From Rhizobium sullae (GTDB lineage: Bacteria; Pseudomonadota; Alphaproteobacteria; Rhizobiales; Rhizobiaceae): a stretch of DNA of 64,000 bases. The position numbers were made by a program, and so were the translations under genes. Positions 18,773-43,472 of the stretch are shown piece after piece (positions within the stretch are counted from its first letter, which is position 1; every line of letters begins with the position of its first letter). The notes beneath the pieces are model-generated. The model saw nothing but the letters and a program-made list of their open reading frames with translations, did no database searches and was not told where the DNA came from. The DNA lies in NCBI RefSeq assembly GCF_025200715.1, contig NZ_CP104145.1:1-64000 (forward strand). Reading direction: 5' to 3'.

Positions 18773-19906
18773 ATGTCCGGACAATCCTTGCCGACGCTGC
18801 CGATGTGGCGCGTCGATCACATCGAGCCCTCGCCCGAAATGTTGGCGTTACGCGCCAACGGTCCGATCCACCGCGTGCGCTTCCCGTCCGGACACGAAGG
18901 CTGGTGGGTGACAGGCTACGACGAGTCCAAGGCGGTACTGTCCGATCCGGCGTTTCGGCCCTCGGGGATGCCGCCGGCGGCATTCACCCCGGCTACGGTT
19001 ATTCTCGGTTCGCCGGGGTGGCTGGGCTCGCACGAGGGCAGCGAGCATGCCCGGTTACGCACGATCGTGGCGCCGGCCTTCAGCAACCGCAGGGTGAAGC
19101 TGCTCGCGCAGCAGATCGACGCGATCGCCGCGCAGCTGTTCGAGACGTTGGCGGCCCAGCCCCAGCCCGCCGATCTGCGACATCACCTCTCCTTTCCGCT
19201 TCCGGCCATGGTCATCAGCGCGCTGATGGGCGTGCCCTATGAGAATCACGCCTTTTTCGCCGAGCTGTCCGACGAAGTGATGACGCACCAGCATGAAAGA
19301 GGCCCGCGTAACGCGGCGCTCCTGGCCTGGGAAGAATTGCGCACCTACATTCGCGGGAAGATGCGAGGCAGGCGCCAGGATCCGGGCGACAACCTGCTGA
19401 CGGATCTGCTCGCGGCGGTCGACCAGGGCAAGGCGACCGAGGAAGAGGCGATCGGCCTGGCGGCGGGCATACTGGTGGCGGGGCACGAGAGCACCGTCGC
19501 ACAGATAGAATTCGGCCTGCTGGCCATGTTCCGCCATCCGAATCAGCGCAAACGCCTGGTCGGCGATCCATCCCTCGTGGATAAGGCGGTGGAGGAAATC
19601 CTGCGCATGTACCCGCCGGGCGCGGGCTGGGACGGCATCATGCGCTATCCGAGGACCGACGTGACCATCGCGGGCGTGCTTATTCCCGCGGAGAGCAAGG
19701 TGCTAGTCGGTCTGCCGGCGACGTTGACCTGCCACTGCGAATTTCCTCCAGGATGGATTAGAGTCCGGCCTATTAAAGGACGGACGAATGAAGAAGCAGA
19801 GATTTACGGAAGAGCAGATTATCGGTGTGCTGAAGGAGCAGGAGGCAGGGGCGAAGGTGGCCGACCTCTGCCGCAAGCACGGGCTTTCGGAAGCGACGTT
19901 TTATAA
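18773..19906 (+). pseudogene. cyp112: Cytochrome P450 CYP112-like, 3' end lost to an IS
   Basis: Matches the CYP112 type that opens the rhizobial gibberellin operon. It starts MSGQSLPTLPMWRVDHIEPS and contains the I-helix AGHESTVAQ near residue 240 and the ExxR (EEILR) near 275. Genuine sequence ends near residue 318 (LVGLPAT) at the IS3 element. The frame then reads into the IS and ends at 19906. The haem-binding Cys loop is absent, so the enzyme cannot function. The downstream gibberellin genes (cyp114, fd, sdr, cyp117, ggps, cps, ks) are not in the window. It marks the replicon as symbiotic. Confidence 0.85.
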
Positions 19907-20054
19907 TTGGAAAGCCAAATATGGCGGCATGGAGGTCTCCGAGGCGAAGCGGCTGAAGGCACTCGAGGACGAGAATGCGAGGCTGAAGAAGCTGCTGGCC
20001 GAGCAGATGCTGGATGCAGCCGCACTCCGCGAGCTTCTTGCAAAAAAATGGTAG
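19788..20054 (+). CDS. IS3-family OrfA
   Basis: An 88-aa HTH_8-type protein ([19 protein letters not shown]) with a C-terminal leucine-zipper-like helix. It ends just after an A7 run at 20042-20048, the probable -1 frameshift site that would make the OrfAB transposase. Confidence 0.9.
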
Positions 20055-20977
20055 GGCCTGCCGCCCAGCGTGACGCTGTCACGCATCTGAAGGCCGTCAT
20101 GGGTCTTTCGGAGCGGCGGGCCTGCCAGATCATATCCGCCGACCGCAAGACGATCCGTTACCGGTCAAGCCGGCCGCCGGAGGTCGATCTGCGAGCGAAG
20201 CTGCGTGACCTCGCCAATGAGCGACGGCGTTTCGGCTACCGGCGGCTGTTCGTCCTGCTGCGGCGGGACGGGGAGCCGTCCGGGGTCAATCGCATCTACC
20301 GGCTCTATCGCGAGGAAGGGCTTTCCGTTCGCAAGCGGAAAGCCAGGCGGCGTGCGGTCGGCACGCGTGCGCCAATCCTGGTTGAAGCGAAGGCCAATGC
20401 CCGCTGGTCGCTGGACTTCGTGCATGACCAGTTCGCCTGCGGCAGACGCTTCCGCGTCCTCAACATTGTCGATGACGTGACGCGCGAATGCCTGGCAGCG
20501 ATCCCGGACACATCGATCTCCGGTCGCCGTGTTGCTCGGGAACTGACGACGCTGATCGAACGACGCGGCAAGCCTGACATGATTGTCTCCGACAACGGCA
20601 CTGAACTCACCTCGAATGCCATTCTCGCCTGGTCGAAGGATCACAAGGTCGAATGGCACTACATCGTGCCGGGGAAGCCAATGCAGAACGGCTATGTCGA
20701 GAGTTTCAACGGTCGGATGCGCGACGAGTTGCTCAACGAGAGCCTGTTCTTCGGCCTCGATCATGCCCGCAGCGCCATCGCCGAATGGGCTGAGGACTAC
20801 AACCATTTCCGGCCGCACTCGTCGCTCGGATATCAGACCCCGGCAGACTATGCCGGGACCATCGCCGCAACCGGCTCCAACGCTGCGCAAGATGAAAGCT
20901 TCGCGTTTCCGCCGGTTGCTCACACCGCGCCAATTGGCGTATCCAAAACTGCCGAGGCTCTAACCGCCGCTGGATGA
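20048..20977 (+). CDS. IS3-family OrfB transposase
   Basis: DDE integrase-type transposase. It has an HTH_21-like region ([16 protein letters not shown]), then [10 protein letters not shown] (first Asp), [10 protein letters not shown] (second Asp) and [16 protein letters not shown] (Glu). The frame is open further upstream, but ATG 20048 at the slippery A run is the natural OrfB start. It is probably produced mainly as the OrfAB fusion. Confidence 0.9.
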
Positions 20978-21108: not shown

Positions 21109-23058
21109 CTAACCGCCGACACGTCGGTCTAAATAGCCTCCTGGAAACGCGGTCAGAGCGGGCATTGGCGTGCAGGGGTTCCAAAGTGGAAGCCCGACCA
21201 GGCGGGCGTCCAGCCGGACAATCAGCTTGCGAGCAATAAGGTCTGCAGTCGCACGCTCAATCTGCATCATGTTCGCCCCGCTCAGCTGTCCACAAACGCG
21301 GGCCTCTGGCACAGCTTGATCTGCAGCCAGTAGAATTTCGCGCGCCAAGCCTTTGACTCCCTGTTCACGCTCCACTGCGACGTTACGTGTGTCCTCGACT
21401 ATAATCTCGTCACCGGTGTCGCGCATCGATAGCATGGGTGGCGTGAGGCCGCACCATGCGTCCCCCCAGGCATCCATACCTTGGATAACCGCTTGAACGC
21501 CGGGGCGGCGGTCTGCGTCAAGTGCGCGGAAATTACGGCCGGCATCATCGTCTTCACTGTCTTCGAAGTAGTAAACCTGATCAGCAAGATCGCGCTCAGA
21601 GAGCGGATAGACGTAGCGATAGGAAGCCGCCGGGCTGAGCGTCAGCCCATATTGGTCGGCTGCGCGATGATAGAGACTGAAGCGCTGGTAGCGCAATCTG
21701 ACAGCGTGTCCCGGCTGCAGATGATGCAGCAGCGGCAACAAGCGGCCCATTTGAGCGTACCAGGCGTCGCTTTCGCGGGGGAAGCCCCACAGAATACTCC
21801 AAATGACCCGCACGCCAAATTGGCGACACCATTTCAGGAGTTGAACATTTTGCGCTGCCGTCGTTCCCTTGCCCATAAGCTTCAAAGCGCGGCTATCCAG
21901 GCTCTCGATACCTGGTTGGATGCAGCGGACACCGCCTGCAGCCAACGTCTCGACTTCATCGCGCTTCAAATTGGCTTTGACTTCAAAGAAGATGGCGAGC
22001 TTTTCGGTTAGGGCGACGAGGCGAGGCAATGCCTTTTCAACATAGTCATTCGCCAGAATGTTGTCCACGGCCTCGATGCGCGACGTGCCGTAGCGCTTGG
22101 ACATGTCGATCATCTCCTCTGACGCTTGTGCGGCCGGCTTCTGGCGATACGTCATCAATGCGCCGTTCAAGCCGCAGAACGTGCAGGGGCTGCTGCGCTG
22201 CCACCAACAGCCGCGAGAGAACTCCATCGGCAGCCCGGGATGCACGCGGTCGGCATAGAGCGAACGCTGAAGCTCGGCAAAATAATCCGAGAAATCGGGC
22301 AGCGGCAGGGCATGCATATTCTCGACCACTGCGCGGGGCACCAAGTCGCCTGTCAGCGTGGCGGGATAGCCGGCCTGGCGATGTGCTGGGCCGAAAACGC
22401 CGAACGGCAGGTCGGCTGGTGGGATGTCGCGACCATGAGTGAGGATGTCGCGACAGAGCCCTCCGATCAGTGTGTCGGCCTCCCCCGACACGACGTAGTC
22501 GACCCACGGAAACCGCGCATGAGTAGTACGTCCCATCACGGATTCACAATTTGCACCTCCCATGAGGGTGATTAATCCTGGCGCGAGCTCGCTCAAGCGC
22601 CGCAGCAACGCGAGCGAGGGAACATGCTGATTGAATGTTGAGGTACAGCCCACCATAGCCGGCCGTTCCTTCAGTATCTTGCCGCATGTCCAATCGATGA
22701 AGCCGCCGATGAGCGAACGCAACTTGAGGAAATTAGCACGAAGCTCGGCCTCATTTTTATGTGGGCACCGATTGCGCCGGAAATACCGGTCGAGGAACAG
22801 GGCGTGGTTGGTTTCGAAGTCGGGAAATGCGACGCCTGCGAACAGCCAGTCAACAAGCGCTTCCTCCGGAGGGGAAGTCTCAAGTAAATTATAGTCGGCG
22901 AGGCCAGCGTATTCCAGAAACCAGATATTGGCATAAACTGTCCTCGATTTCAGGCCGGCCCGCGTCAGCGCCGACTGCAGCAGACCAAGCGCCAGCGACG
23001 GTCGTTCAACTGCTGACAAAGGCATGTTCACCAGCACGATCGGCATATCGGCGCTCAT
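21109..23058 (-). CDS. B12-binding radical SAM enzyme, RiPP maturation protein 1 type
   Basis: A 649-aa enzyme with an N-terminal cobalamin-binding-like domain (PIVLVNMPLSAVERPSLALG near residue 6; VGCTSTFNQHVPSLAL near 135; MGGANCE near 165). A radical SAM core follows: SRGCWWQRSSPCTFCGLNG near residue 285 gives a C-x7-C-x2-C cluster motif. This is the architecture of the family annotated as ribosomal peptide maturation radical SAM protein 1. It overlaps the epimerase-like gene by four bases and is the last gene of the RiPP operon. The substrate is presumably the Nif11-type precursor; the reaction (for example methylation) cannot be told from sequence. Confidence 0.88.
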   Translation of the reverse strand: MSADMPIVLVNMPLSAVERPSLALGLLQSALTRAGLKSRTVYANIWFLEYAGLADYNLLETSPPEEALVDWLFAGVAFPDFETNHALFLDRYFRRNRCPHKNEAELRANFLKLRSLIGGFIDWTCGKILKERPAMVGCTSTFNQHVPSLALLRRLSELAPGLITLMGGANCESVMGRTTHARFPWVDYVVSGEADTLIGGLCRDILTHGRDIPPADLPFGVFGPAHRQAGYPATLTGDLVPRAVVENMHALPLPDFSDYFAELQRSLYADRVHPGLPMEFSRGCWWQRSSPCTFCGLNGALMTYRQKPAAQASEEMIDMSKRYGTSRIEAVDNILANDYVEKALPRLVALTEKLAIFFEVKANLKRDEVETLAAGGVRCIQPGIESLDSRALKLMGKGTTAAQNVQLLKWCRQFGVRVIWSILWGFPRESDAWYAQMGRLLPLLHHLQPGHAVRLRYQRFSLYHRAADQYGLTLSPAASYRYVYPLSERDLADQVYYFEDSEDDDAGRNFRALDADRRPGVQAVIQGMDAWGDAWCGLTPPMLSMRDTGDEIIVEDTRNVAVEREQGVKGLAREILLAADQAVPEARVCGQLSGANMMQIERATADLIARKLIVRLDARLVGLPLWNPCTPMPALTAFPGGYLDRRVGG

Positions 23059-24530
23059 GTCGTTCCCTCGCCATTCCGCCAGGCAAAGCGCTCGTCGAGG
23101 TCCTCTTCGAGCAATCCTCTCATGTGCAGCTGGTCGAGCTCATCGGCAACTGCTATGGCGCTCGCTCCATCCGTTACGACCTGCGCAACCAATTCCGACG
23201 CAGTACAACGGCCATCTGCGATCAGATCGCCAAGGGAGGAGGCGGCGTTGTCGGGCACCTGATACTCAATGTGGCAAGATCGGAGGAGGAAGTGATGGCG
23301 CTTGGCCTCGTACTGCAAGTCCCCGCGGAAGCGGATCGGCCGGTTGGGAGGTGGGCTCTCGTGCATGTGGTCATCGATCATGCTCTGGACTTCGTCCCGG
23401 AACTCGTCTGACGTTCCGAAGAAACGTTCATCCACGATGCGATAACCGAGAGGCCAACGTCCGCTCGCCGGTACCGGCGTCACCAATTGCACACGCCGCC
23501 GCGGCATGTTTACGAGAAAGCCGGAAACGCAGGCGATCGTCGAGTGATCGCTCTCAGATTCCATGGTTGCATCGCCGTTTTTGACTGCGCTGAGTTTCTC
23601 CTTTCGCGCGCGGCCGGCGAAAGCTTTTGAACTTCGCATCTCCTTGCCCTGCAGGACGAGTTCAACGCCCATCAGCTCCTCGGGCGAAAATATCGCGTGG
23701 ATCTGATTGAGTTGAGCCGTGCTCAGCACGGAAAAGCGATTGGTCACGCAGCGGTAGCGTTTGAACAGCTCGAGCACGCGCTTGGTGAGTGCCAGATCCT
23801 TGAGAGGCATTGCCGTCGTTGTTTGCGGCAATGTGCCGGTGATTTGATAATAGTCGAAGAGAAAGCGGTCGTAGTCGGGATTATCCATCGGATCTGTGGC
23901 GCAATAGCAGAAGCCAGTGCTTGCTGCCGAACCAAACATTTCCCTGGCGACGCCGACCACGCCGCGCCACAGGTGGGCATGCCCTTTGCTATATTCAAAA
24001 AAACCTTTGAACCGGCCCGCCGAGAGACCGCAAAACCAGCAGCCCCCGGTGCAGCCTTCGCTCAGCTCGAAAGCAATGACGGGGTGTGTAATTGACTGCG
24101 CCGAATCGCCCAACACGTCGTCGCAGCGGCGTATTTGGCGCTCGCGCCACGCATGGAAACGAGGGTAGGTCACCGACATATTGCCTTGGTCGCGCAGGAT
24201 GTCGCGATGACGCACCATCTCATCCATATACTCACGCCAAGTTACCGCCAATGGCCACGACGCACACTCCGGCTTTCGATAAAATTTCCGGTAGTTCGAA
24301 TGCCAGAGCGGCAGCATCTCCATTGGGTCGACTTCGATCCCGTAGCGTGCCGTTACGCTACGAGGGTTGTCGATGTTCTCCGAAAGCGCGCCCTTGAACG
24401 CCGCGTCGCCGGCGAGACATTCCAAGAAGCGCTTGATATGCGCCAACGTGCGGACCTCTCCAGTTGTCCGCCGGTCAAAGATCCGTCGATAGTGTTCCTT
24501 AGCAGAGTGCGCCACGAGGTTACCTCCCAT
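23055..24530 (-). CDS. Radical SAM RiPP amino-acid epimerase-like enzyme
   Basis: Resembles the radical SAM family RiPP maturation epimerases (PoyD-like), which convert L- to D-residues in precursor peptides. The cluster motif is SEGCTGGCWFCGLSAGRF (C-x3-C-x2-C). FKGFFEYS, YCATDPMDNPDYDRF and TTTAMPLKD follow, as usual in this group. The frame is open to 24659, but ATG 24530 (MGGNLVAHSAKEHYRR) gives the normal N terminus, about 491 aa. It lies 52 bases after the precursor gene, with a hairpin between, and overlaps the B12 radical SAM gene by ATGA. Confidence 0.87.
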   Translation of the reverse strand: MGGNLVAHSAKEHYRRIFDRRTTGEVRTLAHIKRFLECLAGDAAFKGALSENIDNPRSVTARYGIEVDPMEMLPLWHSNYRKFYRKPECASWPLAVTWREYMDEMVRHRDILRDQGNMSVTYPRFHAWRERQIRRCDDVLGDSAQSITHPVIAFELSEGCTGGCWFCGLSAGRFKGFFEYSKGHAHLWRGVVGVAREMFGSAASTGFCYCATDPMDNPDYDRFLFDYYQITGTLPQTTTAMPLKDLALTKRVLELFKRYRCVTNRFSVLSTAQLNQIHAIFSPEELMGVELVLQGKEMRSSKAFAGRARKEKLSAVKNGDATMESESDHSTIACVSGFLVNMPRRRVQLVTPVPASGRWPLGYRIVDERFFGTSDEFRDEVQSMIDDHMHESPPPNRPIRFRGDLQYEAKRHHFLLRSCHIEYQVPDNAASSLGDLIADGRCTASELVAQVVTDGASAIAVADELDQLHMRGLLEEDLDERFAWRNGEGTT

Positions 24531-24549
24531 TTCCACTTTCTCATAGGTC

Positions 24550-24571
24550 CGGGGGTGAATGCGCACCCCCG
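24550..24571 (-). terminator. GC-rich hairpin after the RiPP precursor gene
   Basis: CGGGGGTG and CACCCCCG form a perfect 8-bp stem with a 6-base loop between the precursor stop and the epimerase start. No T run follows, so it is more likely an mRNA-stabilising or attenuating element that keeps precursor in excess over enzymes than a full terminator. Confidence 0.55.
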
Positions 24572-24582
24572 TGATCGTTTGG

Positions 24583-24939
24583 TTAGATGAGGACCGCAGC
24601 GACCACGACAATCGCTTCGGCAGCTTCAAAGACAGTCGTTGCCGCTTGTGCCGCCTCAACAGCGGTGGTGGCGGCCACGATCGTCTGGACTGCTTTGATA
24701 GAGGTCACAACGTCCGAACGGCGCTTGCCGGCACCTCCATCGGTCTGCTTGTCAGTTAAGCCACCCGGGCTTCTGGCCTTTATGAAACTTTTGGCCTCAT
24801 CGATCGTGAAATCGTAGCCGTGCGCCTTTCCGCTCGCCACCAGTGATGCAAGACCGGTAGCATTCTTTTTCACATATTCGAGCAGGCTGACGTCTGTCCC
24901 CAGATCGCCAACGAAACGCTTAAGTTCAGTATCAGACAT
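24583..24939 (-). CDS. Nif11-type RiPP precursor peptide
   Basis: A 118-aa precursor. Residues 1-55 form a Nif11-like leader (LKRFVGDLGTDVSLLEYV ... GYDFTIDEAKSFIKA). A Gly-Gly is seen at 59-60 and a second at 68-69. The remaining 50-60 residues are the core region, extremely rich in Val, Ala and Thr with regularly spaced Glu and no Cys, ending VVVAAVLI. Such an aliphatic, Thr/Val/Ala-rich core next to an epimerase-like enzyme recalls proteusins, where D/L alternation gives a beta-helix. ATG 24939 follows GGAG at 7 bases. The mature product is unknown. Confidence 0.85.
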   Translation of the reverse strand: MSDTELKRFVGDLGTDVSLLEYVKKNATGLASLVASGKAHGYDFTIDEAKSFIKARSPGGLTDKQTDGGAGKRRSDVVTSIKAVQTIVAATTAVEAAQAATTVFEAAEAIVVVAAVLI

Positions 24940-25021
24940 CTTTAATCTCCTTCACGTATTCTAGCAGGCTGACGTCTTTCCCCAGATCGCCAACAAAACG
25001 CTTAAGTTCAGTTTTGGACAT
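24932..25021 (-). pseudogene. Truncated tandem copy of the Nif11 leader
   Basis: A 29-aa frame starting MSKTELKRFVGDLGKDVSLL, nearly identical to the first residues of the precursor, then a stop. The duplicated DNA includes the ribosome site (GGAGATTAAAG), so it is a tandem partial duplication of about 80 bases. The frame is also open upstream to ATG 25159. That upstream part combines the start of the TPP-enzyme gene (MPQSDKRR) with an out-of-frame piece of phaC (25077-25140). Confidence 0.7.
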
Positions 25022-25186
25022 CTTTAATCTCCAGATCGCCTCGAGCTCAGAAAGCCTTGGCCGTGCGTGAAGCATGATACGTCTTCGGCGTCGCTCCGAC
25101 ATCGACATCCTCGTCGCGGATGCCGGCGAGCACGTCCGCCGTTTATCAGATTGCGGCATAACAAACCTCCTGACGGTTTAATTAAG

Positions 25187-25211
25187 ATATGACGGTACTA
25201 AGCCGTCATAT
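25187..25211 (-). promoter_or_regulatory. Operator-like inverted repeat upstream of the RiPP locus
   Basis: ATATGACGG and CCGTCATAT form perfect 9-bp arms around 7 bases. A further half-site, CCGTCA on the minus strand, abuts the AGGAGG ribosome site at 25170-25177. The same half-sites recur before both TPP-enzyme genes. Confidence 0.6.
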
Positions 25212-25241
25212 GGCCGAATTATGATCTTTTCGGCAGGAACG

Positions 25242-25621
25242 TCAACGGCCATTAAGCTGCCGCGCCAACAAAATTACCGGCTCCATCGGAGCAAGGCCTT
25301 TCGCGACGGCTTCGGCGGCGGAGACAATTTTGGTAGTGGACTTGCCAATTCCGCCCTTTCCATAGAATTCGATCTGACGCAGAGCTGCCATGCTTGGGGT
25401 TCCTTCATGTGTTCGAAGCAATGCGGTTATCCCGCACCGCGGATGCGGCCGCCCTTCCGCTGCCTCGCAATAGCTCTCAAGATTCGTGCCAAGTCGGCCG
25501 ATTGAGCTGACCAACAATTATTCGCTGCTATTTCAGCGATGTGGGCGGAAAATATGGGATTGGGCGAAGACGATTGCGTGTCGCGCAAGCTGACAAAGGC
25601 GACGACGATGTCGTAGGTTGA
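25242..25621 (-). repeat. nifH promoter/start cassette, copy 1 (inverted arm)
   Basis: About 380 bases nearly identical in reverse complement to 26588-26966. In order it holds a NifA-site-like TGT-N11-ACA (25579-25595), a -24/-12 sigma54-like TGGCACG-N4-TTGA (25478-25493), and a 49-codon ORF (25391-25242). The first 15 or so residues of that ORF are NifH (MAALRQIEFYGKGGIGKS). They then join KIVSAAEAV, the start of the CoA-transferase. The cassette points at the RiPP locus. The -12 element has GA where GC is canonical. Confidence 0.75.
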
Positions 25622-26587: not shown

Positions 26588-26966
26588 CAACCTACGACAT
26601 CGTCGTCGCCTTTGTCAGCTTGCGCGACACGCAATCGTCTTCGCCCAATCCCATATTTTCCGCCCACATCGCTGAAATAGCAGCGAATAATTGTTGGTCA
26701 GCTCAATCGGCCGGCTTGGCACGAATCTTGAGAGCTATTGCGAGGCAGCGGAACGGCCGCCGCATCCGCGGTGCGGGATAACCGCATTGCTTCGAACTCA
26801 TGAAGGAACCCCAAGCATGGCAGCTCTGCGTCAGATCGCATTCTATGGAAAGGGCGGAATTGGCAAGTCCACTACCAAAATTGTCTCCGCCGCCGAAGCC
26901 GTCACGAAAGGCCTTGCTCCGATAGAGCCGGTAATTTTGTTGGCGCGGCAGCTTAATGGCTGTTGA
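26588..26966 (+). repeat. nifH promoter/start cassette, copy 2 (inverted arm)
   Basis: Mirror of copy 1: TGT-N11-ACA at 26613-26629, a TGGCACG-N4-TTGA promoter core at 26717-26731, and a 49-codon hybrid ORF from ATG 26817 after AAGGAA. The ORF begins with NifH residues including the P-loop GKGGIGKST and continues into CoA-transferase-like KIVSAAEAV. It points at the TPP-enzyme/phaC cluster starting 80 bases downstream. It is not a functional nifH. Confidence 0.75.
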
Positions 26967-27046: not shown

Positions 27047-27601
27047 GTGACGCAGTCTGTTAAACGTCGGAAGCGCAAGGTCAAGGGGTCTGACCTCTTT
27101 GTGCGGGGGCTTGAGGAGCAGGGGGTCAAATGCATCTTCGGCATCCCCGGCGAGGAAGTCCTCGACATCATGGAATCCATTCGCAAGTCGAAGACGAAGA
27201 TAAAGTTCGTGCCGACCCACACCGAGTGGGCCGCGGCCCTCATGGCTGCGAACTATGGCCGCCTGACTGGCAAGACCGGCGTCTGCCTCGCCACTTGCGG
27301 TCCGGGCGTGCTCAACTTCCCCAACGGGGCTGGCTATGCCTTTCTCGGCGGGATGCCGCTTCTGATGATTGGCGGCCAGAAGGCGATCAAGAGCCGCCCC
27401 CAGGCAGGTTTTCAGAGGGTCGACGCCGTCGCGGTGATGAAGCCCGTGACCAAGCTCGCAATACAAATCGCATCGGCGCAGTTGATCCCGTCGATGGTCA
27501 GGGAGTCCTTCCGCGTCACCCAGGAGGGAAAGCAGGGGCCAGTGTATCTTGAGCTTCCGGAAGATATTGCGGCCGAAAAATGCGAGGAGGAGGAGGTCTG
27601 A
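27047..27601 (+). CDS. TPP-dependent acetolactate synthase-like, N-terminal (Pyr) subunit, copy 1
   Basis: A 184-aa protein equal to the N-terminal TPP-binding domain of acetolactate synthase-type enzymes. FGIPGEEVLDIMESI is followed by the catalytic Glu in THTEWAAALMAANYGRLTG, then LATCGPGVLNFPNGA and GPVYLELPEDIAA. The usual enzyme is one chain of about 550 aa; here the remaining domains are a separate gene. The start is GTG at 27047 after AGGAGG. The reaction (acetolactate formation or a decarboxylation) cannot be settled from sequence. Confidence 0.85.
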   Translation: MTQSVKRRKRKVKGSDLFVRGLEEQGVKCIFGIPGEEVLDIMESIRKSKTKIKFVPTHTEWAAALMAANYGRLTGKTGVCLATCGPGVLNFPNGAGYAFLGGMPLLMIGGQKAIKSRPQAGFQRVDAVAVMKPVTKLAIQIASAQLIPSMVRESFRVTQEGKQGPVYLELPEDIAAEKCEEEEV

Positions 27602-27734
27602 TGATTGCGCCGACGCCCCATCACCGCAGCCAAACGTCCGCTTCTGATGTTCGGGGCAGTCGCCTCGCGTCCCCGCTCTACACCGGATTCGCGCAGTTTA
27701 CGATTCGCACAGGCAGCAATCGAAAGGAATTGAC
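27602..27734 (+). pseudogene. Relic of the original start of the TPP C-terminal subunit
   Basis: ATGATTGCGCC follows the upstream stop, and the next bases repeat sequence found inside the downstream gene (compare ATTCGGGGCAGCCGCCTCGC near 27893), with indels. It appears to be the decayed original 5' end of the second subunit, replaced by the chimeric start at 27735. Confidence 0.5.
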
Positions 27735-28961
27735 ATGACAAGGCAACGAAAGAACACTCGCAGCCCTGAGGGCGAAAAGCGCATGGTCAAGGGGTCCGAC
27801 CTCCTGCACCAGTTCGAACGGCCGATAGCAAGCGATGCGACCCTCAATCAAATCGCCGCCCGCATCACCGAAGCCAAAAGTCCGCTTCTGATATTCGGGG
27901 CAGCCGCCTCGCGTGCCGCCGCCTCTAATCTCGGCTTGGCAGCGGATATGGCGCAGTTTGTGATCCGCACCGGCATTCCGTTCCTTACCACTCAAATGGG
28001 CAAGGGCACCGTATCCGAGAGCTCCCACCTCTATATGGGCACGCCGGCGCTATCCGAAGGCGAGGATGTGCATGAGGTCATCGACAAGGCCGACCTGATC
28101 CTCCCGATCGGCCACGACACGACCGAAAAGCCACCGTTCATCATGCGCAAGGGCGGCCAGGAGGTCATTCACATCGCAGAACAGGCGCCACCAGTCGAGC
28201 CGGTCTACTTCCTTCAATTCCAGCTCATCGGCGAGATCGGCCATTCGCTGAAGGCGCTGGCCGATCGCCTCGAGGGCAAGCTGCCAAACGCGCAGGCGCT
28301 TCTTTACCTACGCGAGCCCATTCTCGAGCGCACCGCCGCGCGGGCGACGGAGGACAGCTTCGCGCTACAGCGTTTGGTCAACGATATAAGCGAGGTGATG
28401 ACGCCGCATGACAGCATCCTGGTGCTGGACAACGGCCAGTACAAGATCTCGGTCGCTCGCAACTACCAGACCAATGCCCCCAATACGCTGCTGCTCGACA
28501 ATGCTCTTGCAACGATGGGAGCAGGACTGCCGTCGGGGATAACGGCCGCGATGCTCAATCCCTGGCAACGCGTCATGGCGCTCTGCGGCGACGGCGGCTT
28601 CCAGATGACCAGCCAGGAACTGGAGACGGCCGTCCGCCTCAAGCTCAACCTGGTCATCGTCATCCTGAATAACAAGGACTACGGCATGATCAGCTGTAAG
28701 CAGGCCTCCAAGGGTTACAAGAATTTCGGCACCAAATTCGACAATCCGGATTTCGTGAAATTGGCCGAATCCTATCACGCCAAGGGCACGCGCGTCGAAA
28801 CGCCGGACGATCTGGTGCCGGCGCTGGAAGCCGCTTTCGAAGGCGGCGGCGTCCATGTTGTCGAAGTGGCGATCGTTTATTCGGATTACAAGCGAGGGCT
28901 TACCGATAAGCCGCGCTCGCGCAAAGCGAAACCAACGAAGCGCCTGAGCGACCTAGGATAA
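27735..28961 (+). CDS. TPP-dependent acetolactate synthase-like, central and C-terminal subunit, copy 1
   Basis: A 408-aa protein carrying the central domain (ITEAKSPLLIFGAAASR; FLTTQMGKGTVSE) and the TPP pyrophosphate-binding domain. The latter has MALCGDGGFQMTSQELETA followed by the NN of LNNKDYGM, i.e. GDG-x(25-28)-NN. The N-terminal 25 residues resemble the leader of the other subunit (PEGEKRMVKGSDLL), so the gene is a recombination chimera. AGGAA precedes ATG 27735. It should pair with the 27047 product to form a full active site. Confidence 0.83.
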   Translation: MTRQRKNTRSPEGEKRMVKGSDLLHQFERPIASDATLNQIAARITEAKSPLLIFGAAASRAAASNLGLAADMAQFVIRTGIPFLTTQMGKGTVSESSHLYMGTPALSEGEDVHEVIDKADLILPIGHDTTEKPPFIMRKGGQEVIHIAEQAPPVEPVYFLQFQLIGEIGHSLKALADRLEGKLPNAQALLYLREPILERTAARATEDSFALQRLVNDISEVMTPHDSILVLDNGQYKISVARNYQTNAPNTLLLDNALATMGAGLPSGITAAMLNPWQRVMALCGDGGFQMTSQELETAVRLKLNLVIVILNNKDYGMISCKQASKGYKNFGTKFDNPDFVKLAESYHAKGTRVETPDDLVPALEAAFEGGGVHVVEVAIVYSDYKRGLTDKPRSRKAKPTKRLSDLG

Positions 28962-30226: not shown

Positions 30227-30886
30227 ATGCTGCTGCGCATGTCGGAAATGTGGCGCAGCAACATCGAGCAGGCAGGGGAGGTTGAAAAATTGTGGTTCAA
30301 ATCGATGATGCCCTTCCTCACCACGCGCGCGGCTGACAGCAGCCTGTTTGCCGCCGCGCAGGGCGGCGAGATCTCAAAAACCATCAAGCGCATGGTGGAA
30401 GCCCCGCGCCTTGCCGACATGTGGAACCTCGACCAGGTCTACGCTCTGATGGCGGCCTGGATGGACGTGGGCGAGCGCATGGCGGCCTATCACGCCATAG
30501 CCTCCGTGCCGTGGAGCAAGGCCTATGAACGCTACAGCGCAACGCTCGCCGACACGAAGGAAGAAGACGCCAAGGATTTCGGCTGGCGCAAGGCCTTCAA
30601 CAAGTGGAGGTGCATTGCGAACGAGGAAATGATCAGCAACCTGCGCTCTAAGGATTTCCTCACCGCGCAGCGCGAATTGCTGCTCGCCGCGCTGGACCTG
30701 CGCACCTGCCAGCAGCAAATGACCGACAGCGTCGCCAAGCTGTTAGGCGTTCCGAGCCAGCACGACTTCGACGAGCTGACGCGGCAGTTCACGGAACTCA
30801 GGCGGGAGCTGCGCGCCAGCATCAGGGCACAGCGCGATGAAGTCGAAGGTGCACGCGGTTTCGCCACACAACCAGGAAAGGGATGA
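30227..30886 (+). CDS. phaE: PHA synthase class III subunit PhaE
   Basis: Helical 219-aa protein of the PhaE type, the non-catalytic partner of class III PhaC. It contains AAWMDVGERMAAYHA, FGWRKAFNKWRCIANEEMI and a C-terminal coiled coil. It lies 3 bases before phaC. Compared with the phaE remnant at 41540-41574, two bases are missing just after the original ATG (30190). Translation must therefore now start at ATG 30227 or 30239, with a slightly shortened N terminus. Confidence 0.8.
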   Translation: MLLRMSEMWRSNIEQAGEVEKLWFKSMMPFLTTRAADSSLFAAAQGGEISKTIKRMVEAPRLADMWNLDQVYALMAAWMDVGERMAAYHAIASVPWSKAYERYSATLADTKEEDAKDFGWRKAFNKWRCIANEEMISNLRSKDFLTAQRELLLAALDLRTCQQQMTDSVAKLLGVPSQHDFDELTRQFTELRRELRASIRAQRDEVEGARGFATQPGKG

Positions 30887-30889
30887 GCG

Positions 30890-31999
30890 ATGACCGAACC
30901 CCGCGAAACCGCCTTCACCAGCTTCCTGAAGGATTTCGCCGAGAATGTCGGCAAATTTCACAAGGGGGCGAACGTGCTCGCCGGCATCCGCGACGAGGAT
31001 GTCGATGTCGGAGCAACCCCGAAGACGCTCGTCATGCGCCGCGACAAGGTGGAGCTGTTTCGCTACGAGCCGACGGCCAAGCGCACCGTCGAGACGCCGG
31101 TCCTCATCGTCTATAGCCTGGTCGGCCGCTACACTATCGCGGACCTCCAGTCCGACCGCTCGCTGGTGCGTAGCCTGCTCGCCGAGGGCACCGACCTTTG
31201 GCTGATCGACTGGGGCAAGCCCGGCCGCACCGAGCGCTGGCTGATGATGGACGACTATGTCGACGACTATATCCACCAGGCGGTGCACCGGATCTGCCGC
31301 GAGACGGGCCATGACAAGGTAACGCTGCTCGGCATCTGCCAAGGCGGCGTCTTCGCCACCTGCTATGCGGCACTCCATCCGGAGAAGGTCAAGAACCTAA
31401 TCCTGACCATCACGCCGATCGACTTCCACGCCGATATCGATGACCCGGCGGCGATTCAAGGCCTCCTCAACATCTGGATTCGTTCGCTTGCGCCCGAGGA
31501 TATCGACCGCATGGTCAATGCGCTGGGCGGCGTCATCCCCGGCGAATTCATGAGCTCGATCTTCTCGCTCATGAGACCGATGCACTCGCTGACCAAGTAC
31601 AATGTCGGCCTCTTCGACATCGTCGACGACAAGGACCGGCTGATGAACTTCCTGCGCATGGAGAAATGGCTGGCCGACCGGCCGGATCACCCGGGCGAAG
31701 CCGGCCGACGATGGCTGAAGGAGCTCTATCAGGAGAACCGCCTGGCCGAGGGCAGGTTCGAGCTGTCGGGCCGCATCGTCGACCTCCGCGCGATCGACAT
31801 GCCCGTGCTCAACATCTACGCGCGGGACGACCATATCATTCCGCCGGCCTGCTCCAAGGCCCTCGGCGGCAAGATCGGCAGCACCGACTATACGGAGATT
31901 CCGCATCCGAGCGGGCATGTCGGCCTGTTCGTCTCGAGCGAGTCGCAGGGGAAGCCCGCCAAAACCATAGCCGAATGGCTCCAGGCACGGGACGGGTAG
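30890..31999 (+). CDS. phaC: Polyhydroxyalkanoate synthase class III, PhaC
   Basis: A 369-aa catalytic subunit that polymerises 3-hydroxyacyl-CoA into PHB granules. The lipase-like box has the nucleophilic Cys (LLGICQGGVF near residue 145). The catalytic Asp is in YARDDHIIPP near 308 and the His in HPSGHVGLF near 337. The length fits class III. It follows phaE closely. A short fragment of its 5' end is found out of place on the minus strand at 25077-25140. Confidence 0.94.
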   Translation: MTEPRETAFTSFLKDFAENVGKFHKGANVLAGIRDEDVDVGATPKTLVMRRDKVELFRYEPTAKRTVETPVLIVYSLVGRYTIADLQSDRSLVRSLLAEGTDLWLIDWGKPGRTERWLMMDDYVDDYIHQAVHRICRETGHDKVTLLGICQGGVFATCYAALHPEKVKNLILTITPIDFHADIDDPAAIQGLLNIWIRSLAPEDIDRMVNALGGVIPGEFMSSIFSLMRPMHSLTKYNVGLFDIVDDKDRLMNFLRMEKWLADRPDHPGEAGRRWLKELYQENRLAEGRFELSGRIVDLRAIDMPVLNIYARDDHIIPPACSKALGGKIGSTDYTEIPHPSGHVGLFVSSESQGKPAKTIAEWLQARDG

Positions 32000-41543: not shown

Positions 41544-41575
41544 CCCCAAGCTCGGGCGACCAACCGGAATCTCCA
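41540..41575 (+). pseudogene. phaE: phaE 5' remnant
   Basis: ATGACCCCAAGC and the next codons (MTPSSGDQPE) match the upstream reading frame of phaE at 30190-30220, then stop at a junction with nifH-promoter DNA. phaE and phaC have been lost from this copy. Confidence 0.65.
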
Positions 41576-41604
41576 CATTCAACTTACGACATCATCGTGA
41601 CCTT

Positions 41605-41722
41605 TGTCGGCTTCGCGACACCCATTCCTCTTCGCCTAATCCCGTATTCCCGCCCACGTAGCTGAAATAGCAGGAAATAATTGTTCGTCGGCTCAATCCG
41701 CCGGCCTGGCACGAATCTTGAG
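41605..41722 (+). promoter_or_regulatory. nifH-type NifA/sigma54 promoter driving the CoA-transferase
   Basis: A canonical NifA upstream site TGT-N10-ACA lies at 41605-41620. The -24/-12 core TGGCACG-N4-TTGA lies at 41707-41721 (GG at 41708, with GA rather than GC at -12). The sites are about 90 bases apart, within the normal range. It is the third copy of the cassette seen at 25242-25621 and 26588-26966. Confidence 0.65.
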
Positions 41723-41807
41723 AGCTTTTGGGAGGCAGCGGAACGGCCGCCGTATCCACATTGCGGGTTAACCGCATTGCTTCGAACACATGAAGGAACG
41801 CCAAAGC

Positions 41808-43472
41808 ATGGTAGCACCGCATCAGAGCGCATCCTATGGAAACGGTCGAATTGACAAATTCACCAAGATTGTCTCCGCCGCCGAAGCCGTCGCGACCATC
41901 CGTCCGGGCGATACAGTTGCTTTTTCCGGCTTCGTCGGCATCGGCACGCCGGAGGCGGTGATCTGCGCCCTTGGGAAGCGTTTCCTCGAAACGGGCGAGC
42001 CGAGCAATCTCACTCTCGTCTTTGCCGCCGCCCCAGGCAACGGCAAAGACAAGGGCCTCAACCGACTGGCGCATGACGGGCTCGTGAAACGCCTCATCGG
42101 CGGGCATTTCAAGCTGGTGCCGAAGCTGGCCCAACTGGCGGCCAGCGGCAAGTGCGAGGCCTACAATCTGCCGCTCGGGATCATTTCCCATCTCTTCCGC
42201 GAGATCGCTGGGGGCGAGCCCGGGCTGATCTCGAAAGTCGGACTTCGGACCTTCGTCGACCCGCGCATCGACGGCGGCAAGCTCAATTCCAAAACGACGG
42301 AAAACCTCGTCAAGCTCACGGAAATCAACGGCAAGGAGTGGCTCTTCTACAAGACCTTCCCCATCCACGTCGCCATCCTGCGCGGCACGACGGCCGATTC
42401 ATCCGGCAATGTCACGATGGAGAAGGAGGCGCTGACGCTCGACAACCTGACGATCGCCACCGCCGCCAAGAACCGCGGGGGTATTGTCATCGCGCAGGTC
42501 GAGCGGATCGCCGCCGCCGGCTCGCTCAGCCCTCGCGAGGTTAAAATCCCCGGCCATCTGGTCGACTGTGTCGTCGTCGCCGAGCCGGAGCATCACATGC
42601 AGACCTATGCGACCCAATACAACGGCGCCTTCTCCGGCGAATTCCGCGCGCCGGCGGACAGCGCCGCCTCCATGGAACTGAACGAACGCAAGATCATCGC
42701 GCGGCGCGGCGCCTTAGAACTGCGGATGGGCGATGTCGTCAATCTCGGCATCGGCATGCCGGAAGGGGTTGCGGCGGTCGCGACGGAAGAGGGGATCATC
42801 GACAAGATCACGCTCACTACCGAATCCGGCACCATCGGCGGCACCCCACAGAGCGGGCTGGACTTCGGCGCGGCCAAAAACCCCGAATCGATCATCGACC
42901 AGAACCAGATGTTCGATCTCATCGATGGCGGCGGGCTGGACCTCGCCGTTCTCGGCTTCGCGCAGGTCGATGCGCAAGCCAATGTCAATGTCAGTCGGTT
43001 CGGTGATGTCCTCGCCGGCGCCGGCGGCTTCATCAACATTTCGCAGAACACCCGCCGTCTCGTCTTCTGCGGCACATTTACCAAGGACCTCCGCACCGAG
43101 ATCCGGGACTGCAAGCTCGTCATCCTGCAGGAAGGGCAGGCGAAGTTCATCGAAAAGGTCGAGCAGATCACCTTCTCGGGCGAATATGCCCGCGAGACCC
43201 CCCAGACCGTGCTGTTTGTCACCGAGCGCTGCGTCTTCTCGCTGATCCCTGAGGGGCTGGAACTAATCGAAGTCGCGCCGGGGATCGATATCGAGCGCGA
43301 CATCCTCGCCCATATGGAGTTCCGGCCGATCATCCGCCAGCCGCGCGAAATGGCGGCTGTGATCTTCGCCGACGGTCCGATGAATCTCGACCAGCTGCTG
43401 CTCGAACGCCTGCTTTCAGAGGGCATAGAGTTCGATGCAGAGCGCAGCACGAGGCCGCCAGCTATGGGCTAG
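41808..43472 (+). CDS. Acyl-CoA:acetate/propionate CoA-transferase with a nifH-derived start
   Basis: About 554-aa single-chain family I CoA-transferase (alpha plus beta halves). The alpha half begins KIVSAAEAVATIRPGDTVAF and the beta half follows near residue 290, with the catalytic Glu in TTESGTIGGTPQ. By alignment with the nifH cassettes the start is ATG 41808 after AAGGAA. The first 20 residues (MVAPHQSASYGNGRIDKF) are a diverged copy of the NifH N terminus. It could convert acetate or another acid to its CoA ester, feeding PHB. Confidence 0.88.
   Translation: MVAPHQSASYGNGRIDKFTKIVSAAEAVATIRPGDTVAFSGFVGIGTPEAVICALGKRFLETGEPSNLTLVFAAAPGNGKDKGLNRLAHDGLVKRLIGGHFKLVPKLAQLAASGKCEAYNLPLGIISHLFREIAGGEPGLISKVGLRTFVDPRIDGGKLNSKTTENLVKLTEINGKEWLFYKTFPIHVAILRGTTADSSGNVTMEKEALTLDNLTIATAAKNRGGIVIAQVERIAAAGSLSPREVKIPGHLVDCVVVAEPEHHMQTYATQYNGAFSGEFRAPADSAASMELNERKIIARRGALELRMGDVVNLGIGMPEGVAAVATEEGIIDKITLTTESGTIGGTPQSGLDFGAAKNPESIIDQNQMFDLIDGGGLDLAVLGFAQVDAQANVNVSRFGDVLAGAGGFINISQNTRRLVFCGTFTKDLRTEIRDCKLVILQEGQAKFIEKVEQITFSGEYARETPQTVLFVTERCVFSLIPEGLELIEVAPGIDIERDILAHMEFRPIIRQPREMAAVIFADGPMNLDQLLLERLLSEGIEFDAERSTRPPAMG

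Follow-up and report, generated by a model that had tools for sequence, protein, structure and literature searches.

A Nif11-type precursor and two radical SAM enzymes

The DNA analysed here, called the window below, is a stretch of 64,000 nucleotides from Rhizobium sullae (positions 1 to 64,000 of contig NZ_CP104145.1, assembly GCF_025200715.1), and our subject is a short operon within it that appears to encode a ribosomally synthesized and post-translationally modified peptide (RiPP). Three intact genes follow one another on the minus strand: a Nif11-leader RiPP precursor of 118 residues (24583..24939), a PoyD-family radical S-adenosylmethionine (SAM) peptide epimerase (23055..24515) and a B12-type radical SAM gene whose product is, by family, a PoyC-like RiPP C-methyltransferase (21109..23058); no exporter or protease is seen in the operon. 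An initial annotation, made from the sequence, had proposed this three-gene locus, and it is real. On genome contigs, 24 of 26 loci with a related epimerase hold a precursor-like open reading frame (ORF; the exceptions are L029 and L030), which excludes a chance origin of the trio, and many carry the B12 gene too; the enzymes are thus conserved with the precursor in other genomes, the very point on which that annotation had made its reading depend. The contig is 470,679 bp long and bears a full nifH at 279619-280443, for which reason we call it the symbiosis replicon, and the earlier placement of the locus on a symbiotic plasmid stands. A family search of the genome finds a single Nif11 gene. 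Less exact was the locus end given as 25021, which is a real ATG but opens a truncated tandem duplicate of the leader start (24932..25021, minus strand), the precursor itself beginning at 24939. The stop of this truncated copy overlaps the precursor ATG, and the copy holds the precursor's GGAG ribosome-binding site; it is found in six of seven aligned Rhizobium upstream regions, and in the seventh, L002, the leader copy is fused into the annotated ORF.

The epimerase, likened to RiPP epimerases from the start, scores 586 bits against TIGR04517 (rSAM_PoyD; cut-off 325). Its GTG start is preceded by GGAGG, with an alternative in-frame ATG at 24530; searches and residue numbering used the slice 23055-24518. 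In an alignment of 118 epimerases (the window's and the listed homologues of at least 460 residues), the cluster cysteines Cx3Cx2C (C156, C160 and C163) are kept in 99.2%, as is C204, and C330 is kept in 100%. PoyD homologues are described as sharing one strictly conserved cysteine, Cys372, the likely hydrogen donor (PMC8326336), and C330 may be its counterpart and so a candidate donor; by its family, the window enzyme would convert peptide residues from L to D. No sequence relative of the epimerase was found in the PDB at E <= 1 (by sequence comparison; no fold search was made). The B12 enzyme, whose ATG overlaps the epimerase stop (ATGA), scores 751 bits against TIGR03975 (rSAM_ocin_1; cut-off 282), a family described as RiPP maturation radical SAM C-methyltransferases, which agrees with its earlier assignment to the maturation radical SAM protein 1 family. 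It contains CWWQRSSPCTFC, a Cx7Cx2C motif present in every homologous piece that covers the place. PoyC has the same motif and methylates Ile3 and Val5, 10 and 21 (PMC11285071), and the window enzyme is probably PoyC-type by this motif, with PoyC's own membership of TIGR03975 assumed. Its match to the Pfam B12-binding family PF02310 (E = 0.0012, 19.1 bits) is below the cut-off of 32.1, and its only PDB match by sequence comparison is a weak one, to OxsB (E 0.027). The D-residues and methylation of the product are predicted from these enzyme families.

The precursor passes the Pfam Nif11 model PF07862 (27.4 bits, cut-off 23.8), in line with the leader type first assigned to it. Against NCBIfam TIGR03798 it scores 25.7 bits, under the cut-off of 32.3, and the records of close relatives, R. 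johnstonii 3841 for example, are annotated with a TIGR03798-type name all the same. Among its NCBIfam and Pfam matches at E <= 0.1 there is no nitrile-hydratase-like leader peptide (NHLP) model. By its leader, which is Nif11 and not NHLP, the locus is not a proteusin in the strict sense; the comparison with proteusins therefore stands for both enzymes (PoyD-type, and PoyC-type with Cx7Cx2C) but not for the leader. We set the leader at residues 1-56 (24772-24939), the linker at 57-74 (24718-24771) and the core at 75-118 (24586-24717), borders of our own choosing. The core is rich in Val, Ala and Thr, with no Cys and two Ser, much as annotated: aliphatic and without clusters of either residue. 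Homologues at E <= 1e-3 number 23, the named ones all from Rhizobium or Mesorhizobium, and their alignment places a putative double-glycine-type leader cleavage site at VGG-K in Mesorhizobium and at AG-K or VG-K in Rhizobium.

Across 15 Rhizobium-type precursors, a set that includes the window's own and three of unassigned source, identity to the window precursor averages 97% for the core, 82% for the leader and 71% for the linker. The ratio of nonsynonymous to synonymous differences (pN/pS) is 0.14, 0.41 and 0.97 for core, leader and linker in 36 pairs from 9 loci, two of which (L007 and L042) encode an identical peptide. Multi-product RiPP families usually show the reverse pattern, with the leader kept and the core varied. 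Because the core is more constrained than either leader or linker, we read this as selection acting on the end product, and not solely on an enzyme docking site. An alternation in the core of the polytheonamide kind was looked for and set aside: hydrophobic-moment spectra of five cores have no 180-degree signal, the best angle being 105-110 degrees in four and 165 degrees in the fifth, which is non-rhizobial. Shuffle p values at the best angle are 0.021 for the window, 0.057 for the M. huakuii type, 0.025 for P0019, 0.43 for S. meliloti and 0.21 for the non-rhizobial core, a result too weak for or against a beta-helix. An AlphaFold model of the precursor has a helical leader at a mean predicted local distance difference test (pLDDT) score of 57, with values under 50 at residues 58-74 and 90-118, and was not used.

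Of the known systems, the polytheonamide (poy) cluster has further tailoring enzymes, a nitrile-hydratase-like leader and a core with Asn repeats, whereas the window has three genes only, a Nif11 leader and a core with Glu, Lys and Gln but no Asn, behind a NifA/sigma-54-type promoter and in legume symbionts. Among cyanobacterial clusters, PlpA carries a Nif11 leader, and we know of no symbiotic regulation of the PoyD-family clusters in these organisms. What the window shares with poy are the two enzyme families, the Cx7Cx2C of PoyC and the strictly conserved epimerase cysteine (the PoyD epimerase and the B12 radical SAM C-methyltransferases PoyB and PoyC; PMC8326336, PMC11285071), together with an aliphatic core of like length (poy residues run up to 49; PMC11285071). 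With the cyanobacterial PlpD, OspD and AvpD clusters (PMC8326336) it shares a PoyD-type epimerase acting on leader-bearing precursors, although the two cyanobacterial plasmid copies are only ~36% identical to the window epimerase.

The upstream region and published bacteroid data

Facing the precursor on the minus strand lies a duplicate of the nifH promoter together with the start of nifH (25333..25552), which has its nifH ATG at 25391 and shares 77% identity with the promoter region before the full-length nifH of the same plasmid. Motif search and alignment place within this copy a sigma-54 -24/-12 element, TGGCACG-AATC-TTGA (25477..25491, minus strand), so that the motif TGGCACG-N4-TTGA stands at -552 of the precursor, and beyond it a site like those of the NifA upstream activator, TGT-N11-ACA (25579..25595, minus strand). 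The likeness to the rhizobial NifA-RpoN regulon is twofold: the -24/-12 promoter has an A at -12, as described for nifH of M. loti and R. etli, and nifH fragments serve as promoters before non-nif genes there as well (msi321-320; PMC3538637). The difference is one of content, since the R7A members in Table 1 of that paper are nif/fix, metabolic, porin, peroxiredoxin/rpoN2 and other genes, none of them called a RiPP in the table.

To see how general such a promoter is, we sought the strict motif TGG[CT][AG]CG-N4-TTG[CA] before the first precursor of each locus. The count covers 36 rhizobial loci, one row each, the repeats L001, L006, L031 and L033 having been dropped; it also leaves out L007, L015 and L032, which have short upstream DNA, and L062/L063 and L074/L075, which are unscored. 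Of the 36, 23 have the motif no more than 250 bp from the precursor and 30 have it within 800 bp, against none of eight non-rhizobial loci at either distance and 1 and 6, respectively, of 255 control ORFs from the same rhizobial DNA. Counted by upstream-sequence group (single linkage, 70% over 200 bases, some groups possibly of shared origin), the motif occurs in 8 of 13 groups within 250 bp and 9 of 13 within 800 bp. Within 800 bp, 21 of the 36 rhizobial loci have a TGT-N10-ACA site, as do 2 of the 8 non-rhizobial ones; random 800-bp stretches contain it in 73 of 720 cases. The type of promoter varies with lineage. In the seven nifH-copy loci of Rhizobium, the motif is at -358 to -552; in S. 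meliloti it is at -113/-126, inside a nif-promoter repeat whose relatives elsewhere stand before fixA-like and nifH-like starts; and other sites are used elsewhere, at -155 to -168 in M. huakuii-type Mesorhizobium and Aminobacter, at -71 to -99 in other Mesorhizobium, Sinorhizobium and NGR234, and at -98 in Bradyrhizobium. These positions point to a precursor operon that would be under a NifA/RpoN switch.

Published data place the precursor in bacteroids. A "Nif11 family protein" of 14.45 kDa and isoelectric point (pI) 8.86, pRL100099, is reported from 4-week nodule bacteroids of strain 3841, with a ratio of 1.23 in a gmcA mutant (PMC7105596, Table 5). For the annotated precursor of strain 3841 (R. 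leguminosarum / R. johnstonii) we compute 14450.5 Da and pI 8.86, and since both values agree we take the two to be the same protein. Likewise MCHK_12735, of 12.54 kDa and with a ratio of 0.50 in hypE-mutant bacteroids (PMC10454058), is the locus tag of the M. huakuii 7653R precursor on pMHb, for which we compute 12544.0 Da. Falling along with nif/fix genes in the nodules of an abiEi mutant are two Nif11 genes (log2 -6.00 and -4.35) and a gene listed as "amino acid epimerase" (-4.46; PMC8436566, Table 4). That paper puts MCHK_RS31560/RS31565 on pMHa, and CP006583.2 has two epimerase places to which these copies might correspond. For NGR234 bacteroids (RNA-seq, PMC3732241) and for 7653R (RNA-seq, PMC3973600), expression data for the locus were not found with the terms tried. 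In the tables and accompanying text of the three bacteroid papers where the Nif11 protein appears (PMC7105596, PMC10454058 and PMC8436566), it is not called a RiPP, and these data place the precursor in bacteroids but do not speak to control by NifA, to specificity for the nodule or to modification. On the nifH-derived promoter, the conservation of core over leader and the precursor in published bacteroid proteomes, the initial annotation was silent.

The nifH-promoter fragment is repeated in the window. A second, inverted copy (26588..26958, plus strand) is 98% identical and stands before an acetolactate-synthase-like gene (27047-28961) that is split into two ORFs of 184 and 408 residues. A third copy (41575-41895) is 84% identical and reads, within 41575-43472, into a CoA-transferase-like ORF; this may be a chimeric gene, for a diverged nifH N-terminus is contained in its start. 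Further partial copies lie on contigs C3 and C4. The stretch from promoter copy to precursor (25080-25430) is a mosaic of gene heads, holding the nifH head, a CoA-transferase-like start (IVSAAEAVA, recognised by eye in the translated sequence) and a 61-bp segment with 95% identity to the phaC start at 30967-31027. Between promoter and precursor there is also a perfect inverted repeat, TATGACGG-N7-CCGTCATA (25188-25210), in this genome alone among the loci compared.

Distribution and variants

Epimerase homologues number at least 1041 at E <= 1e-20, from a search that scored the 7996 candidates sharing most words and listed the best 120. Among the matches listed, the named epimerases of at least 60% identity come from Rhizobium, Mesorhizobium, Sinorhizobium, Bradyrhizobium and Aminobacter, the five genera in which relatives of the locus are found. 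Plasmid records matching the epimerase at E <= 1e-40 are 48 of 72,556 (Rhizobium 23, Sinorhizobium 17, Mesorhizobium 5, Aminobacter 1 and cyanobacteria 2); they include pRL10 of R. johnstonii 3841 and pNGR234a of S. fredii NGR234, and 21 were retrieved for locus analysis. When 39 epimerases are placed in a tree, all 30 from rhizobia group in a single clade (support 99/98) that crosses genus lines, as expected of genes that travel with plasmids and islands.

The locus keeps company with nitrogen fixation genes. In a sample of 297 genomes from the family, the epimerase occurs in 4 and nifH in 17, and all 4 are among the 17; of the genomes reached through the loci, every rhizobial one (15 of 15) carries nifH, compared with 1 of 7 that are not rhizobial. 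A gap of 68 bp separates the end of the annotated R. hidalgonense trio from the fixABCX-nifA-nifB run that follows it, and the precursor and epimerase genes of R. etli NXC12 are found ~1.8 kb upstream of its nifHDK genes. An order-wide survey was discarded as a test of association in favour of the family sample, TIGR04517 matching in 2 of 397 genomes, which is too few, and one of the two having only two fragments below cut-off.

Gene content varies. A GNAT gene separates the two enzymes in Mesorhizobium and Aminobacter, and Aminobacter Y103A (L039) and M. helmanticense (L009) have a linked NHLP exporter in addition. S. meliloti has four annotated Nif11 genes, one of only 55 residues in L003. 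Bradyrhizobium loci retain the B12 enzyme, and many Mesorhizobium and Sinorhizobium loci consist of precursor and epimerase only. A TIGR03975 gene was found in none of six such epimerase-only genomes (L010, L013-L016 and L019) and was not found in five of six epimerase-only plasmid records searched (L040, L064, L065, L067 and L070), the sixth, L069, having one.

Some observations on variants and neighbouring genes may be recorded here. In Mesorhizobium L008 (10001-16296), no B12 gene was found, the GNAT match ends at residue 91 and exporter pieces follow; GNAT is cut in the same way in L074, with an uncut copy (L075) on the same plasmid. A locus in a Rhodospirillaceae metagenome-assembled genome (L022, 5148-10563) has at least seven Nif11 ORFs with varied cores, unlike the rhizobial ones, and one epimerase. 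In the window, a cytochrome P450 ORF (in 18773-20977), with a Pfam match that stops at residue 318 of 377, runs into an apparent IS3-type transposase region (type assigned by eye). A phaE-phaC-like pair of class III polyhydroxyalkanoate synthase genes lies at 30227-31999, and the RiPP locus of R. johnstonii 3841, R. hidalgonense and S. meliloti has the same genes for neighbours.

A predicted peptide of nitrogen-fixing bacteroids

The reading we favour, and consider probable, is that the trio makes a NifA/RpoN-controlled, bacteroid-made RiPP with D-residues and C-beta-methylated Val and Ile, perhaps membrane-active. In bacteroids fixing nitrogen, NifA and RpoN would transcribe the three genes as one unit from the captured nifH promoter; this step is read from sequence, and published work has found the precursor in the bacteroids of two relatives. 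The Nif11 leader would recruit the PoyD-type epimerase, which, going by its family, would make D-amino acids at selected core residues through hydrogen abstraction at C-alpha and hydrogen donation from Cys330. The PoyC-type enzyme, judged by family and by Cx7Cx2C, would methylate C-beta of Val and Ile; B12 enzymes of this type presumably take L-residues. The leader may then be cut near (G/A/V)G-K by a C39 peptidase-ATP-binding cassette (ABC) exporter, of the kind linked to the locus in Aminobacter and M. helmanticense and unlinked in the window's genome. The product would be an aliphatic, protease-resistant peptide of 44-49 residues, which, speculatively, might insert into membranes and act within nodules, either on rhizobia that compete or senesce or at the membrane of the symbiosome.

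A number of observations weigh against this. The product and its modifications are at the level of prediction, and the proteome tables, which give annotated masses, are silent on processing. The only C39 match in the window's genome is an ABC exporter with ECGLAC on contig C2, unlinked. The upstream activator-like site in the window has a spacing of N11, not N10, and 15 of the 36 rhizobial loci, the window and all four Bradyrhizobium included, are without TGT-N10-ACA within 800 bp. Of three clover-type loci, two (L042 and L071) have the sigma-54 motif no nearer than about -1.94 kb, where it precedes a gene for a Glu/Leu dehydrogenase; L036 has no strict motif within 4 kb; and L065, L069 and L070 match only a motif that was relaxed afterwards. 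Nor is the locus among the potential NifA-regulated operons of M. loti R7A in Table 1 of PMC3538637. Since 13 of the 17 nifH-positive family genomes are without the epimerase, the locus is an accessory trait, dispensable for fixation. Only four of eight searched plasmid records with the locus bear nifH, and the locus is therefore not always on the nif replicon. Moreover, several epimerase copies are broken, as fragments in L027 and L041 and as split genes in L004, L018, L036 and L037, and in 6 of the 48 plasmid records no matching stretch covers 80% of the epimerase.

The alternative that survives best, doubtful as we hold it to be, is an ordinary bacteriocin-like RiPP carried on plasmids and directed, as an antibiotic, at related rhizobia; its place on symbiosis plasmids and behind nif promoters would then be a by-product of shared mobile DNA. 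The four plasmid records without nifH would suit such a compound, as would the NHLP bacteriocin exporter linked in Aminobacter and M. helmanticense, and the enzyme pair is the same as in the cytotoxic polytheonamide pathway. Set against this are the sigma-54 motif, far commoner before the precursor than before control ORFs of the same DNA, the window's trio itself, beside which no exporter or immunity gene was recognised, and the conserved core, which counts against a weapon because weapon cores often diversify. Type VI secretion genes, co-listed with the Nif11 and epimerase genes in Table 4 of PMC8436566, are again on the side of the bacteriocin. That the locus is a decaying or selfish passenger, acquired with symbiosis DNA and transcribed from a nif promoter with nothing useful made, is very improbable: the broken and partial copies and the presence of the epimerase in only 4 of the 17 nifH-positive family genomes would fit it, but the core pN/pS of 0.14, the retained catalytic cysteines and a trio intact in the window, L002, L005, L035, L071 and L072 do not. 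Equally hard to credit is a product that needs epimerisation only, with the B12 enzyme accessory or inactive and a D-residue peptide as the essential product, as the six Mesorhizobium and Sinorhizobium epimerase-only genomes and the sub-threshold Pfam B12-binding match might suggest, since epimerase-only loci bear a different core and the window B12 enzyme is full length, has the PoyC motif and belongs to a clade that keeps trio and core.

A wider proposal extends the bacteroid RiPP reading, and although unlikely to hold as a whole, it is worth setting out. Five genera would share one NifA-switched peptide made during fixation, its D-residues and C-beta-methyls letting a conserved hydrophobic core survive and act in the nodule, for example as a channel or insulator of the symbiosome membrane, or as a signal or toxin from bacteroids to undifferentiated kin. 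It would be the first RiPP coupled to nitrogen fixation, a bacterial counterpart to the nodule-specific cysteine-rich (NCR) peptides of the plant. Both enzyme families are already known, as is the class of epimerised, C-methylated aliphatic RiPPs; of a NifA-coupled, core-conserved Nif11 variant in legume symbionts we found no description in open-access full texts, with subscription papers, preprints and supplements outside the search.

If the bacteroid reading is true, modification machinery known from a sponge symbiont and from cyanobacteria would be at work in the nitrogen-fixing stage of the legume symbiosis, switched on by the activator of nitrogenase itself. It predicts that laboratory strains as familiar as R. 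leguminosarum 3841, S. fredii NGR234 and M. huakuii 7653R make a nodule peptide as yet unseen, and because the precursor is already in the published proteomes of 3841 and 7653R, the claim can be tested on existing mass spectra. Moreover, the lineages with epimerase only and those with epimerase plus methylase would constitute a natural experiment on the purpose of each modification.

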